A stretch of DNA of 64,000 nt from Mucilaginibacter arboris (lineage in GTDB: Bacteria; Bacteroidota; Bacteroidia; Sphingobacteriales; Sphingobacteriaceae), in NCBI RefSeq assembly GCF_009754915.1, contig NZ_WPIK01000003.1, positions 1 to 64,000 on the forward strand, given 5' to 3'. The notes beneath the pieces were generated by a model, which saw only the letters and a list, made by a program, of their open reading frames with translations, was not told the DNA's origin and made no database searches. How positions within the stretch are numbered: the stretch's first letter is position 1; every line of letters starts with the position of its first letter. The translations under genes were made by a program, and so were the position numbers. Below are positions 445 to 61,094 of the stretch, piece by piece.

Positions 445-608
445 TTGAAGTTGTTTAAACTTTTTTTCTGGCCGATGCTTCTTTTATCAGCTAAAAATTG
501 GTGTTTACATTTAATCTATCAAAAAAACAATGGTTAACATTTTTTAGGTGATAAAAGAAGCATGACCCCAAAAAAAGCGGGCCAGAAAAAAAGTTTAAAC
601 AACTTCAA
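445..608. repeat. 164-bp MITE-like element with 29-bp perfect inverted ends
   Basis: Positions 445-473 and 580-608 are exact reverse complements over 29 nt; the arms begin TTGAAGTTGTTTAAAC and end TTTCTGGCC. Just inside each arm is an inverted copy of the 12-mer (475-486 plus, 552-563 minus), each with its AT tail pointing inward. The core of about 65 nt codes for nothing. The same GTTTAAAC...CTGGCC end recurs as the outer ends of the 690-bp elements at 17.0 and 31.3 kb, so this is one family. No transposase is present. A non-autonomous mobile element or a large structured repeat would both fit. Confidence 0.8.
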
Positions 609-16980: not shown

Positions 16981-17045
16981 GAGGATGATTAAGTTTGTAC
17001 TTTCAATGGATAGTAAATTACTGGCTTATTTAAAATTAAACAGCA

Positions 17046-17735
17046 AACTTGTTTAAACTTTTTTTTCTGGCCTTCTTTTTTTTGGGTTGATACTTCTTTT
17101 ATCGCTTAAAAATATTAACCGCTGGTTTTTAATTTCTGTAGTGGATGTTTCTTTTATCACCTCAAAAATGTTAGGGCCTGTTTAAATTTTGTCCTTTTGT
17201 TTGATGCCCCTTTTATGCCATGATTTTTTTAAATGTTTGGTGGTTTTGGCTAAAGCCTGTTGCCGGTTATCCTTTGTCCACGGCCTGAAGGCCGTGGAAA
17301 CGGCCAATTAGAACATGGCCCGGGCGTCCTGTCTGCACAAGGCAATCCAGCATTGGTAAACAAAGGTTGTCGTAAAAGCTACGCTTTAAAATTGCCACGG
17401 CCTTCAGGCCGTGGTGGTAGAAACACAGGCGGCGGCTTTAGCCAAAAAAAGGGCATACAAAAAATTACGGAATAAATTTTAAACAGGCCTTAATGCTCAG
17501 GTTTTGATTTTTGGGTCGATGCTTCTTTTATCGCCTAAAAATGCTGGCCCTTGGATTTTTGATTTTTTGGCTGATGCTTCTTTTATCACCTAAAAATGTT
17601 GACCATTGTTTTTTTGATTATTTAAATGCAGGCAAACACCAATTTTTATCCGGTAAAAGAAGCATGGGCACGGTCCTGAACCTATCGAAGGGCCTTGTAA
17701 CTATTTAAACGAAGCCTAAAAGTTTAAACAACTTC
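17046..17735. repeat. compound palindromic repeat element, copy A1 (about 690 bp)
   Basis: Outer ends read AACTTGTTTAAACTTT and AAGTTTAAACAACTT, the same ends as the 164-bp element at 445. A nested inner element of about 315 bp (about 17176-17491) has ends GGCCTGTTTAAA and TTTAAACAGGCC. Inside that, TTTTGGCTAAAGCC (17244-17257) is inverted at 17434-17447, and the 20-nt palindrome CCACGGCCTGAAGGCCGTGG (17278-17297) reappears in its TTC form at 17395-17414. Outside the inner element are 12-mer copies at 17519, 17574 and 17654 plus near-matches at 17090 and 17144. It is almost identical to 31303-31992. No coding frame is convincing. Confidence 0.85.
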
Positions 17736-31255: not shown

Positions 31256-31302
31256 GCGATAAAAGAAGTATTAACAATCTGAGGGCTAAAAATTAAACAG
31301 CG

Positions 31303-31992
31303 AAGTTGTTTAAATTTTTTTCTGGCCCGCTTTTTTTTGGGTTGATGCTTCTTTTATCGCTTAAAAATATTAACAGCTGGTTTTTAATTTCTGTAGTTGA
31401 TGTTTCTTTTATCACCTCAAAAATGTTAGGGCCTGTTTAAATTTTGTCTTTTTGTTTGATGCCCTTTTATGCCATGATTTTTTAAATGTTTTGTGGTTTT
31501 GGCTAAAGCCTGTTGCCGCTTATCCTTTGTCCACGGCCTGAAGGCCGTGGCAACCGCAATTAGAACATGGCCCGGGCGTCCTGTCCGCACAGGGCAATCC
31601 AGCATTGGTAAACAAAGGTTGTCGTAAAAACTACGCTTTAAAATTGCCACGGCCTTCAGGCCGTGGGTGGTAGAAACACAGGCAGCGGCTTTAGCCAAAA
31701 AAAGAAGCATACAAAAAATTGCGGAATAAATTTTAAACAGGCCTTAATGCTCAGGTTTTGATTTTTGGGTCGATGCTTCTTTTATCGCCTAAAAATGCTG
31801 GCCCTTGGATTTTTGATTTTTTTAGGCTGATGCTTCTTTTATCACCTAAAAATGTTAACCATTGTTTTTTTGATTATTTAAATGCAGGCAAACACCAGTT
31901 TTTATCCGGTAAAAGAAGCATGGGCACGGTCCTGAACATATCGAAGGGCCTTGTACCTATTTAAACGAAGCCTAAAAGTTTAAACAACTTCA
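31303..31992. repeat. compound palindromic repeat element, copy A2 (about 690 bp)
   Basis: Near-identical, same-orientation copy of 17046-17735. It has the same outer ends (GAAGTTGTTTAAA and TTTAAACAACTTC), the nested GGCCTGTTTAAA ends (about 31432 and 31744), both GGCC palindromes and the GGCTAAAGCC inverted pair. Exact 12-mer copies are at 31345, 31773, 31830 and 31910. Differences from A1 are scattered single bases and 1-nt indels. Confidence 0.85.
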
Positions 31993-44540: not shown

Positions 44541-44552
44541 ATGCTTCTTTTA
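44541..44552 (+). repeat. 12-mer repeat copy
   Basis: Exact copy 6 nt after the hemL stop, tail TGGCATAAATTATA. It also lies just before the histidine kinase gene. Confidence 0.8.
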
Positions 44553-54950: not shown

Positions 54951-55026
54951 GCATCTACCGTTTCAGTTTTATACATCAGGAAAAACTTAACTTCCCTGAT
55001 GTTTAAATATTTCAATCCATTCTCTT

Positions 55027-55201
55027 AGAAGCTGTTTAAATTATTTTCCATGCTTCTTTTATCGCCTTAAAATCTGTGATCCACTTGCTTTTTTTAATTG
55101 CCACGGCCTTCAGGCCGTGGGCGGTAAAAACACAGGAAGCGGCTTTAGCCCAAAAAAGAAACATACAAAAAATTCACTGAATAAATTTTAAACAGCTTCT
55201 T
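55027..55201. repeat. short derivative of the compound repeat element
   Basis: Terminal inverted repeats AGAAGCTGTTTAAA...TTTAAACAGCTTCT bound a 175-bp element. It retains only the right part of the inner element of A1/A2, including one CCACGGCCTTCAGGCCGTGG palindrome and GGCTTTAGCC, plus a 12-mer copy at 55050-55061. Its right end overlaps the 3' end of the MNT relic, which suggests insertion into that gene or capture of its end. Confidence 0.75.
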
Positions 55202-55536
55202 AATTCAGGGATATTTGTTTTAACAGTATCATAAGATATATATTCTACGGTTTCTAAAATATTCGGGCCAATATGCTTGCTTAGCGATTGTTCAGTAATA
55301 AGGTCAACTTTATTTTCGAACAGATCTTCCAAAAAATAAACAATGCTAAGGTAATTTTGAAAGGTCTTTTTCTCTTGCCTGATGTCAACTAATAAATCTA
55401 TATCACTTTTTTATGGTTGCTTTATTTTTAACATAAGAACCCAAAGGCCAATCTCCCGAACGCCAAAAGCAGAAAGCTGTGCTTTATTAGCAGACAGTTT
55501 TTCTAAAATAATATCTTTTGTAAGCGGAGAACGCAT
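55174..55536 (-). pseudogene. MNT-type nucleotidyltransferase (minimal NTase) with frameshifts
   Basis: ATG at 55536 reads LTKDIILEKLSANKAQLSAF then FGVREIGL, but the following GSYVKNKATIKK is in another frame and KSDIDLLVDIRQEKKTFQNY returns to the first. This matches the MNT antitoxin signature G-S-x(9-12)-S-D-I-D-L-L. Later residues (VDLITEQSLSKHIGPNILETVEY) also fit. Two single-base changes therefore break it. In intact MNT/HEPN modules the NTase neutralises a HEPN toxin; no HEPN gene lies here. Confidence 0.78.
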
Positions 55537-55587: not shown

Positions 55588-56604
55588 ATGACAGAATCTA
55601 TGCCTTTTTTAGAGGTAAAAAATGTAACCAAATTATTTGCAGGCGAAAAAATATCAGGTGTTAAAAATATAAGTTTAAGTATTGCTGAAGGTAAAATTAC
55701 AGCGATTATTGGACGGAGCGGAAGCGGAAAATCAACTTTATTAAATTTAATTTATGGATTGATTGATCCTGATGCAGGCAGGATTACATTTTTAGGAGAA
55801 CGTGTTTGGGGGCCTGCAGAAAAACTGATTCCCGGTCACGATCAAATGAAAATGGTTACCCAGCAATCCGATCATTTGAACCATTATGCAAAAGTTTGGG
55901 ATAATGTAGCTTCGTTGCTGCCTAACACCAATCTAACTTATAAATCAGCAAAAACAACCGAAGTATTACAGCAATTACGTTTGCTGGATTTAAAAGAAAG
56001 GCGTGTTGCAGATTTGAGCGGCGGCGAACGCCAGCGTGTTTCTATTGCACGTGCGTTGGTTGCTAACCCAAAAGTTTTGTTGCTGGACGAGCCTTTTAAC
56101 CAGGTTGATGCTTCTTTTAGGGACAATTTGCAGCAGGATATACGGGAAATAGTCCGGCAAACAGGATTAACCGTGATCATGGTTTCGCATGATCCGCAAG
56201 AAGTTTTATCGCTGGCAGATGAATTAGTTGTTTTAAAAGATGGCGAAGTAGTTGAAGCAGGAAACCCACAGCAATTGTATCAGCAGCCTGAAAATTTATA
56301 TACAGCTACTTTGCTGGCAAACGGTACTGTTTTTAATGGCATAAAAGCAGCATCCTTAGGAATTGCTACCAAAAAAAAAACAATAATGGTTTATGCAGAA
56401 GGATTTTATATCGATAAAAACAGCATTGAAAACCTGTGTACAATTGAAGCGGTTTTATTTAAAGGGTTTTACGAAGAACTGGTTTTGAACAATGGCACAG
56501 TAAAATTTAAAACAATTAATTTAAACGTAGGGGCATACCAAACAGGAGATCGGGTTAGTGTTACAATAAAACAGTTTTTAACTTTTGAAGAAGGGCTTGC
56601 TTAG
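55588..56604 (+). CDS. ABC transporter ATP-binding protein with TOBE-like tail
   Basis: A 338-residue ATPase of the importer type. Walker A GRSGSGKS (about 43-50), signature LSGGERQR (about 143), Walker B KVLLLDEPF and the H-loop MVSHDPQEV are present. The C-terminal 100 residues (ATLLANGTVFNGIKAASLG and on) resemble the TOBE regulatory domain of PotA/CysA-like ATPases. No permease gene is adjacent, so its transport partner is unknown. The FNQVDASF residues near 175 are encoded by an exact 12-mer (56108). Its stop overlaps the ilvA stop on the other strand by 4 nt. Confidence 0.92.
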   Translation: MTESMPFLEVKNVTKLFAGEKISGVKNISLSIAEGKITAIIGRSGSGKSTLLNLIYGLIDPDAGRITFLGERVWGPAEKLIPGHDQMKMVTQQSDHLNHYAKVWDNVASLLPNTNLTYKSAKTTEVLQQLRLLDLKERRVADLSGGERQRVSIARALVANPKVLLLDEPFNQVDASFRDNLQQDIREIVRQTGLTVIMVSHDPQEVLSLADELVVLKDGEVVEAGNPQQLYQQPENLYTATLLANGTVFNGIKAASLGIATKKKTIMVYAEGFYIDKNSIENLCTIEAVLFKGFYEELVLNNGTVKFKTINLNVGAYQTGDRVSVTIKQFLTFEEGLA

Positions 56605-59050: not shown

Positions 59051-59114
59051 GGTTTGAGGTACGAGGTTTGAGGTACGAGGTTGCAAAGCCCTACTACCTC
59101 GTGCCTCAAACCTC
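59051..59114. repeat. stutter repeat with inverted copy
   Basis: GGTTTGAGGTACGAGG occurs twice in tandem (59051-59066 and 59065-59080), and CCTCGTGCCTCAAACC follows in inverted orientation (59097-59112). It separates leuA from the methyltransferase stop and supplies the spurious N-terminal extension of the leuA frame. Confidence 0.7.
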
Positions 59115-59870
59115 TTTTATCGCTATAAATCTTAATCTTTTATAATCGGCATACCATTCGCCATCGCGCTGATAATACGGTCCTAATTGTTGTGCGAGTT
59201 CCTGCAAAATTTCCTGTTGGTGTGCTTCTTTTATGCCAGTAAAAAAGTCGGAAGCAAACATCGTGGCCCATTTTTTTACGCCTTCGGCCTGGTCCTGCAA
59301 TAAGGTTTCGCGGTCAAAAAGGGCAGCGTAAGTAACTTTAAAACCGGCTTTTTCCAGCATAGAAGTATATTCTCCAACGGAAGGAAAAAACAGGTATTCC
59401 ATTTGCGACTGCTGCTTGTATCCGTATCGATCTAAAATATTTTTTAATGCCGAGATCATTTTTTCAACATTGCCTTTGCCGCCCATTTCGGCTACAAATC
59501 TTCCGCCCGGTTTTAATGCCTTAAAAACAGCATTCATCATTTTAGGTTGATTTTTAGCTTTGATCCAATGCAAAACAGCATTAGAAAAAACAGCGTTAAA
59601 AGAAGCATCGTAACCTAAATCAGTTGCATCTGCAACTTTAAATTCTGTTTGCGGATAACTTTGCTTTGCTTTTTCAATCATTTCTGCCGAACTATCGACG
59701 CCCAAAACTATTGCACCTTCTTCGCGGATGACATTGGTAAGATAACCGGAGCCGCAACCTAAATCCAGGATATGTTCTCCAGGTTTTGGTTCCAGCAACT
59801 GTAAAAAGTTCTCTCCGTATTTAAATACGAAATCGTGTTTTTGATCGTACAGTTCAGCATTCCATTTCAT
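59106..59870 (-). CDS. SAM-dependent methyltransferase (class I)
   Basis: A 254-residue methyltransferase. [16 protein letters not shown] (motif I), [25 protein letters not shown] and [10 protein letters not shown] are typical of the class including trans-aconitate methyltransferase. The start ATG overlaps the leuB stop by 4 nt (ATGA), implying translational coupling. What it methylates, and whether it belongs to leucine synthesis, is unknown. Two 12-mer-like sequences are in its coding region: an exact copy at 59597-59608 and a one-base variant at 59223. Confidence 0.88.
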
Positions 59871-60997: not shown

Positions 60998-61094
60998 CGA
61001 CCTTAAGGAGAAATCTTATTCAAAATGATATTTTTATCTGCTAAAAGAAGCATTGAAGGCCTGTTATTTCGATGAAGCTTTCTCCTTAAGGTCG
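60998..61094. repeat. intergenic palindrome containing a 12-mer copy
   Basis: CGACCTTAAGGAGAAA (60998-61013) pairs with TTTCTCCTTAAGGTCG (61079-61094). The loop carries a 12-mer copy at 61042-61053 with tail GCAGATAAAAATA. It separates leuD from leuB. Confidence 0.8.

Follow-up and report, generated by a model that had tools for sequence, protein, structure and literature searches.

Nested IS5-type MITEs in Mucilaginibacter arboris and an abundant 12-mer of the genus as a candidate DNA uptake sequence

Type IV pili serve Neisseria and Haemophilus in DNA uptake (PMC7965970), and the Neisseriaceae and Pasteurellaceae are described as the only families known to discriminate their own DNA at this step by short enriched motifs (PMC12616744, 2025). 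The copies number 1,465 in Haemophilus and 1,892 in N. meningitidis (PMC7811141). Among the Bacteroidota, competition experiments show a preference for own DNA in Riemerella columbina; the k-mers listed in the same work are candidates only, A/T-rich words of up to 10 bp with at most one C or G (PMC7965970). The likeness to the reading put forward below is a self-DNA preference in Bacteroidota; the difference is that the available text of that paper lists no 12-mer signal of the present kind. These k-mers aside, a literature search made largely outside subscription journals found no uptake motif in Bacteroidota and no report of natural competence or DNA uptake for Mucilaginibacter or the Sphingobacteriaceae.

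The window, the whole stretch of 64,000 nucleotides that was analysed (G000:C23:1-64000), lies in a genome of 4.16 Mb in 83 contigs (G000), which was compared with two congeners, G002 and G027. It is rich in a 12-mer, TAAAAGAAGCAT, that resembles the DUS of Neisseriaceae and the USS of Pasteurellaceae in its length (their cores have 9-12 bp), in its counts, in being a lineage-specific word and in having copies on both strands, coding as well as intergenic; as in the Haemophilus USS, an A/T tract lies beside the core (PMC7811141). Unlike those signals, it belongs to the Bacteroidota, is a different word and has its A/T tract upstream of the core; the PF00437 ATPase is not found in three genomes of the genus, all 48 MITEs analysed carry the word, and its role as a signal is a prediction.

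Two kinds of mobile element are also close to what is seen in the window. IS5-family insertion sequences and their MITEs have an IS5-family transposase, short terminal inverted repeats (TIRs) beginning with GA, 3-bp target duplications and gene-less derivatives with common ends, and all of these features recur here. The present MITEs differ in being nested, in their cargo of a REP-like doublet or another hairpin, and in holding one to six copies of the genus motif. REP/BIME repeats with a RAYT or an IS200-type Y1 transposase are likewise matched in having inverted palindrome doublets, of which some lack MITE ends, together with units beside a Y1 gene. The differences are a unit made of two palindromes, a foot that is usually CAATT rather than GTAG, and a transposase that scores as IS200. 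In the available text of PMC3733652, GTAG repeats are listed for phyla other than Bacteroidetes, while CGTC repeats are listed also for Bacteroidetes.

The original prediction described a 690-bp nested palindromic element present in two nearly identical copies. Both copies are there, with 95.7% identity over 694 aligned columns and slightly refined bounds, and the predicted nested inverted ends, GGCTAAAGCC/GGCTTTAGCC pair and two CCACGGCC palindromes are all seen in the compound element, whose parts are:

17045-17735, plus strand: compound element copy 1, an outer IS5-type MITE with nested contents; left end AAACTTGTTTAAAC, right end GTTTAAACAACTTC; no 3-bp duplication
17175-17489, plus strand: inner MITE-type block of copy 1, with ends GGCCTGTTTAAATTTT and AAATTTTAAACAGGCC; standalone relatives were aligned
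17244-17447, plus strand: REP-like inverted doublet of copy 1, reading TTTTGGCTAAAGCC ... CCACGGCCTGAAGGCCGTGG (17278-17297) ... CCACGGCCTTCAGGCCGTGG (17395-17414) ... GGCTTTAGCCAAAA; homologues occur elsewhere
31302-31991, plus strand: compound element copy 2, with the target duplication AGC on both sides; four exact motifs, six at up to one mismatch
31430-31743, plus strand: inner MITE-type block of copy 2, including the REP-like doublet, with palindromes at 31531-31550 and 31648-31667; aligned

The 690-bp repeat is almost certainly a nest of three layers, in which an outer IS5-type MITE holds an inner IS5-type block that in turn holds a REP-like inverted palindrome doublet. The nest is a new combination of known kinds. 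The ends of the outer MITE are GAAGTTGTTTAAAC, and target duplications of the family are 3 bp long. When the genome was searched by BLAST with one 690-bp copy, 126 matches had E<=0.01, and six of these, the window copy among them, span the query from 1 to 690; the search scored 40 of the 1,371 first-look candidates. Fourteen aligned loci have common ends and unrelated flanks, and the same end type is common to 48 MITEs and one insertion sequence, so the boundaries do not vary from copy to copy. Tandem duplication is rejected as the origin, since the flanks of these 14 aligned loci are unrelated. The two compound copies themselves have about 13 bases of left flank in common (AAAATTAAACAGC; 17032-17044 and 31289-31301), and their right flanks differ. 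Elsewhere in the genome, at G000:C67:176211-176695 (L015), successive head-to-tail BLAST pieces, four of them of about 105-115 bp, match the motif-bearing part beside an inner-type block, and this stretch is probably a tandem array. A search of the window against Rfam at the gathering threshold gave nothing but one tRNA, whose gene lies at 1701-1775.

Convergent pairs of ends of the type GA[AG]GTTGTTTAAAC or GAAGCTGTTTAAA, with up to one mismatch, number 51 in 500,246 bases of G000, many of which were fetched for such ends or for similarity to the 690-bp query. Two pairs, one of 1,097 bp with two different end types and one of 1,836 bp with poor ends, were left out of the count of target duplications, leaving 49 elements; the motif count below also leaves out the insertion sequence, leaving 48 MITEs. 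Identical 3-bp flanks are found in 33 of the 49 elements, against 5.2 expected with re-paired flanks, while at lengths of 1, 2 and 4-8 only 0-6 flank pairs are identical, an excess not comparable to that at 3 bp. The commonest duplications are AAT/ATT (16 of the 33). The short TIRs are common to copies whose flanks are unrelated. The spread suggested in the original prediction is thus supported, by the target duplications, as transposition. The duplication is missing in 16 of the 49 elements, including the copy at 17045-17735, for which no explanation other than a non-transpositional origin is offered.

Two simple MITEs of the window are:

55028-55199, plus strand: separate MITE of 172 bp with ends GAAGCTGTTTAAATT and AATTTTAAACAGCTTC, a palindrome at 55101-55120, one exact motif and the target duplication TTA; the site is empty in G027
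447-606, plus strand: MITE of 160 bp that shares its end type with the outer element; two exact motifs, both directed outward; the 3-bp flanks differ from each other

The first of these had been taken for a truncated third copy of the compound element (55027-55201). It is instead an independent insertion, because it is bounded by GAAGCTGTTTAAA ends of its own with TTA next to each, and because the orthologous place in G027 reads through with a single TTA. At the corresponding intergenic gap (54951-55236 in the window, C81:6118-6348 in G002), where the window has the 172-bp MITE, G002 has a different MITE-like element and G027 has none. A near-perfect hairpin, ACTAAAGACCTATAAGGTTTT...CTTATAGGTCTTTAGT, is the cargo of further MITEs of the family (G000:C3:87473-87813, C7:50983-51267 and C23:157948-158241); this long hairpin is unlike the REP-like doublet and sits between motif-bearing arms.

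An insertion sequence of 855 bp at G000:C3:132881-133735 has the ends GAAACTGTTTAAATTTTG...TTTAAACAGTTTC (GAAACTGTTTAAA) and is flanked by TTA on each side. Its IS5 transposase is coded in two frames. It has a DDE_Tnp_1 domain (E 3.5e-26), and the C-terminal frame scores 132.4 bits to the NCBIfam IS5 model NF033580, for which the cut-off is 110; the other frame, with the DUF4096 N-terminal part, scores 69.3 bits to the same model. The full-length transposase is matched once in G000, nowhere in G002 or G027 at E<=1e-10, and at E<=1e-40 in none of the 200 other genomes of a family sample of 201. In G000 there are also two partial matches (residues 127-196) that continue into TTTAAACAGGCC, which is the end of the inner block, and both layers therefore have IS5-type ends. 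With ends of matching type and a predicted IS5 transposase, the 855-bp element qualifies as the candidate autonomous partner. Because its ends, similar as they are to those of the outer MITE, differ from them by some bases, we infer rather than observe that its transposase would move the outer MITE in trans.

The core of the inner block consists of two units, GGCTAAAGCC-N-CCACGGCCTnnAGGCCGTGG, in inverted orientation. With one mismatch allowed, the larger palindrome occurs 52 times in G000, 22 times in G002 and not at all in G027, and three times in total in two of 38 other genomes. Among 13 pairs fetched as separate loci from G000 and G002, nine are without an exact TGTTTAAA or TTTAAACA (L236, L240-L243, L245 and L247-L249), with look-alikes of these ends in L240 and L241; the other four (L237, L238, L244 and L246) have at least one exact TGTTTAAA or TTTAAACA. 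Four Y1_Tnp genes are present in the three genomes, two in G000 and one each in G002 and G027. The gene at G000:C56:196866-197207 has palindrome units on both sides, the nearest 3' unit being degenerate; no such palindrome was seen in the loci fetched for the remaining three genes. Scored against curated models, the protein of the C56 gene exceeds the threshold for IS200/IS605 (57.5 bits, cut-off 55) and stays below that of NF047646 for REP-associated tyrosine transposases (24.6 bits, cut-off 80). No GTAG tag is found at the foot of the palindromes, where the genus usually has GCAATT. A related palindrome unit with a CTAC/GTAG foot occurs in L250, from a genome of another family of the class (G213), and suggests an old REP-like unit in the class.

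These observations bear on the likeness to REP elements moved by RAYT transposases that was first remarked on. It holds for the innermost layer, whose units match those around a Y1 transposase gene of the same genome, and it does not extend to the outer layers, with their IS5-type TIRs and 3-bp duplications. Of the two partners to be looked for, a RAYT or an insertion sequence with the same ends, the former is not supported by the REP-associated model and the latter was found as an IS5-type element with similar ends. A RAYT-driven REP/BIME array spanning all layers of the compound element is most improbable in view of the outer and inner ends, the 3-bp duplications, the IS5 transposase with like ends, the failed REP-transposase model and the three out of four Y1 genes that lack such palindromes nearby. 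A RAYT/REP origin of the outer layers is ruled out by the target duplications, the IS5 transposase and that same failed model.

The 12-mer TAAAAGAAGCAT occurs at up to one mismatch five times in copy 1 of the compound element and six times in copy 2. The sites in copy 1 are:

17090-17101, minus strand: motif with one mismatch (TAAAAGAAGTAT)
17145-17156, minus strand: motif with one mismatch
17519-17530, minus strand: exact motif
17574-17585, minus strand: exact motif
17654-17665, plus strand: exact motif

In the window as a whole there are 46 exact and 18 one-mismatch copies, while the reversed word is found 0 times exactly and once with one mismatch. The complete G000 genome has 1,947 copies (965 forward and 982 reverse), compared with 0 + 1 for the reversed pattern; G002 has 2,114 (1,059 + 1,055) and G027 has 1,118 (520 + 598). 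The word is abundant in three of the 151 family genomes, all three of the window's genus, and the 148 others have at most 10 copies each. In a class sample of 247 genomes it is abundant in one, the window's own, the other 246 again having at most 10 each. A search of a public genome collection with an extended pattern of 23 positions gave at least 68 stretches among the matches listed, all from uncultured Mucilaginibacter sp. SRR12240180_bin.4 and Sphingobacteriaceae bacterium Lichen_MAGs_lobaria3. No comparable 10-mer was found in one stretch from each of 20 other genera (17 of 20 kb and three of 11.6, 11.2 and 1.1 kb), where no word exceeded 6 copies, compared with 19 copies in a 20-kb part of the window; each sample being small, this is weak evidence that other genera lack such a word.

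The word is also sharply defined. A 284-kb stretch of C23 has 163 exact copies, against 81 for all 36 one-mismatch variants together. Among these variants TAAAAGAAGTAT is by far the commonest (30 of 81 in C23 of G000 and 17 of 40 in C12 of G027) and is perhaps a tolerated variant. The full signal reads AWWWWW-N4-GN-TAAAAGAAGCAT, its core being present in the compound element. Intergenic and coding copies of the three species agree in having an A and then A/T bases at about -12 to -7, and a G at -2, the G002 and G027 sets for this layout having been obtained largely by searching with the motif pattern. A depletion in foreign islands is neither supported nor contradicted, the largest motif-free gap in the 284 kb (14.8 kb) being within the random range (99% point, 16.7 kb).

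With one mismatch allowed, none of the 48 MITEs is without the motif, although this is not 48 independent events because the MITEs share descent and some were found via similarity to the 690-bp element. Over the 16,828 bases that these elements occupy there are 141 copies, and the 111 exact ones amount to 6.6 per kb. One or more outward-pointing pairs are present in 42 of the elements. In 200 random draws of equally long segments from the 109 MITE-free gaps of C23, an average of 24.9 of the 48 segments, and never more than 34, held the motif. The same pair is present in ten G002 loci fetched by BLAST with the motif-pair part, several of which have TGTTTAAA-type ends. Such regularity is what would be expected if the motif were a structural part of the MITE, a transposase site or a remnant of a TIR, with single copies being the relics of decayed or excised MITEs. 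The 855-bp insertion sequence, which has no motif even at two mismatches, argues otherwise: the motif is therefore not a needed part of an IS5 element, and its identity with an IS5 end or transposase site is rejected. The wider distribution of the motif is also against this explanation. In 1,011,443 bases from the three species there are 575 copies, at densities that are raised because the segments came via a motif pattern search (66 of the 72 were fetched for the extended motif). Only 98 of the 575 lie near a TIR core, and 105 are in ORFs of at least 120 aa (60 on the same strand and 45 on the opposite one); the remainder consists of 222 in co-directional, 94 in convergent and 62 in divergent gaps and 92 in no counted class. 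Some of the ORFs that hold a motif have known domains (Pfam families were matched by five of the seven such window ORFs scanned), and some of the motifs in such ORFs are exact in both relatives. Coding and intergenic examples of such conservation are:

61042-61053, plus strand: intergenic motif standing alone, with exact counterparts at the orthologous positions of both relatives
44541-44552, minus strand: another lone intergenic motif, likewise with exact orthologous counterparts in both relatives
56108-56119, minus strand: exact motif within the ORF 55588-56604, which has an ABC-transporter domain; both relatives have the exact word too
59597-59608, plus strand: exact motif in a methyltransferase-domain ORF on the minus strand (59106-59870), exact in both relatives

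Over C23:35000-69000, 14 of 21 motifs can be aligned to a relative, at 66-86% local identity, and seven cannot. Ten of the 14 are identical, one is exact but offset by a gap, two have one-base changes (both to GTAT) and one is lost; by simple arithmetic, a 12-mer free to change would be expected to remain intact in about 7% of cases at 80% identity. In the reverse view, 10 of 18 G027 motifs align to C23 (eight identical, two with one mismatch), as do eight of 14 in C81 of G002 (five identical, one exact but offset, two changed with an alignment gap) and none of the four in C118 of G002. When repeats are included in the alignment set, 25 of 31 motifs are identical and four have one mismatch. 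Outside MITEs, orthologues that differ do so mostly by single substitutions, with a few gapped cases, and no clean insertion of a motif was found among this small sample of aligned cases; the motif at 55050 came inside the insertion of the 172-bp MITE. The substitutions, together with the positions of the motif in ORFs and away from TIR cores and its absence from the insertion sequence, make it improbable that it is a structural MITE part.

The placement of the motif relative to genes was examined in the first 264 kb of C23, which were not selected for the motif. Even though ORFs of at least 150 aa cover 80% of this sequence (gene calls being simple ORFs), only 33 of its 154 copies are within them, 20 on the same strand and 13 on the opposite one. 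In the gaps there are 67 copies between co-directional genes (2.4 per kb), 25 between convergent genes (2.1) and 26 between divergent genes (1.9); convergent gaps are thus not the densest in this unselected control. The motif is common near stop codons. In the larger set with 575 copies, orientation within 150 bp of stops is even (130 same versus 117 opposite, p=0.45); at the same distance from starts, copies in the direction of the gene are in excess (104 versus 65, p=0.003).

In favour of a transcription terminator or RNA processing signal, the motif is common near stop codons and inverted pairs of it can form stems; the even orientation at stops, the 1.9 copies per kb in divergent gaps and the single word, which is not palindromic, make such a signal very improbable. 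As to a role as promoter or terminator, the gap-type and orientation counts speak against both, save for the lean near starts.

The chief rival to an uptake role is an abundant DNA-binding protein, a nucleoid, chromosome-organising or regulatory protein specific to the genus, for which the 12-mer would be the binding site without any part in uptake. The preference for intergenic DNA (33 of 154 copies in ORFs that cover most of the sequence), the orientation bias near starts, the conservation of the motif and the lack of a PF00437 match in the genus are all consistent with such a protein. It is harder to reconcile with nearly 2,000 exact sites of 12 bp, with ORF copies on both strands in both sets of sequence (20 and 13; 60 and 45), and with convergent gaps, in which no promoter is expected, having a density (2.1 per kb) similar to that of divergent (1.9) and co-directional (2.4) gaps. 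To our knowledge, no bacterial regulator has so many near-invariant sites. A binding protein of this type is considered unlikely.

A short, lineage-specific, strand-indifferent word, kept against mutation within genes and between them, points to DNA uptake, and the reading of the nest and its motif that is moderately favoured here is that the motif is a DNA uptake (self-recognition) sequence of natural transformation. A surface receptor would prefer DNA that bears the motif, and copies would accumulate on both strands, in and between genes. The MITEs would move in trans by the IS5-family transposase, leaving 3-bp target duplications, and those carrying the motif, mostly as outward pairs, would spread and be homogenised with the preferentially imported DNA. 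If the motif does serve uptake, a MITE with several signals would be imported and exchanged at a higher rate, and the presence of the motif in the MITEs could be understood in this way; they would then be hitch-hiking on uptake. The machinery gives a mixed picture. ComEC (PF03772) is present in all five genomes searched, three of the genus and two outgroups, and does not discriminate. The PilB/PilT-type ATPase (PF00437) is matched in none of the three genomes of the genus and is present in 11 of 61 genomes searched. Two observations could count against uptake: the motifs are strongly intergenic with a lean near starts that is also expected of a regulatory site, and their presence in all MITEs may mean that they serve the MITE.

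More tentatively, and as a prediction from genome sequence that falls a little short of likely, the genus may have a DNA uptake signal system, which would have no precedent in Bacteroidota or anywhere beyond Neisseriaceae and Pasteurellaceae, operating without the type IV pilus ATPase. Its resident MITEs would have taken up the signal, mostly as outward pairs; a transposon family without genes would thereby travel with natural transformation and distribute uptake signals over the genome. The presence of the word in all 48 MITEs suggests a link between the spread of transposons and transformation. If this is true, the genus would provide an independent case, in another phylum and with a different machine, on which ideas about the purpose and origin of uptake signals could be tested, and it would supply an exact word to assay.
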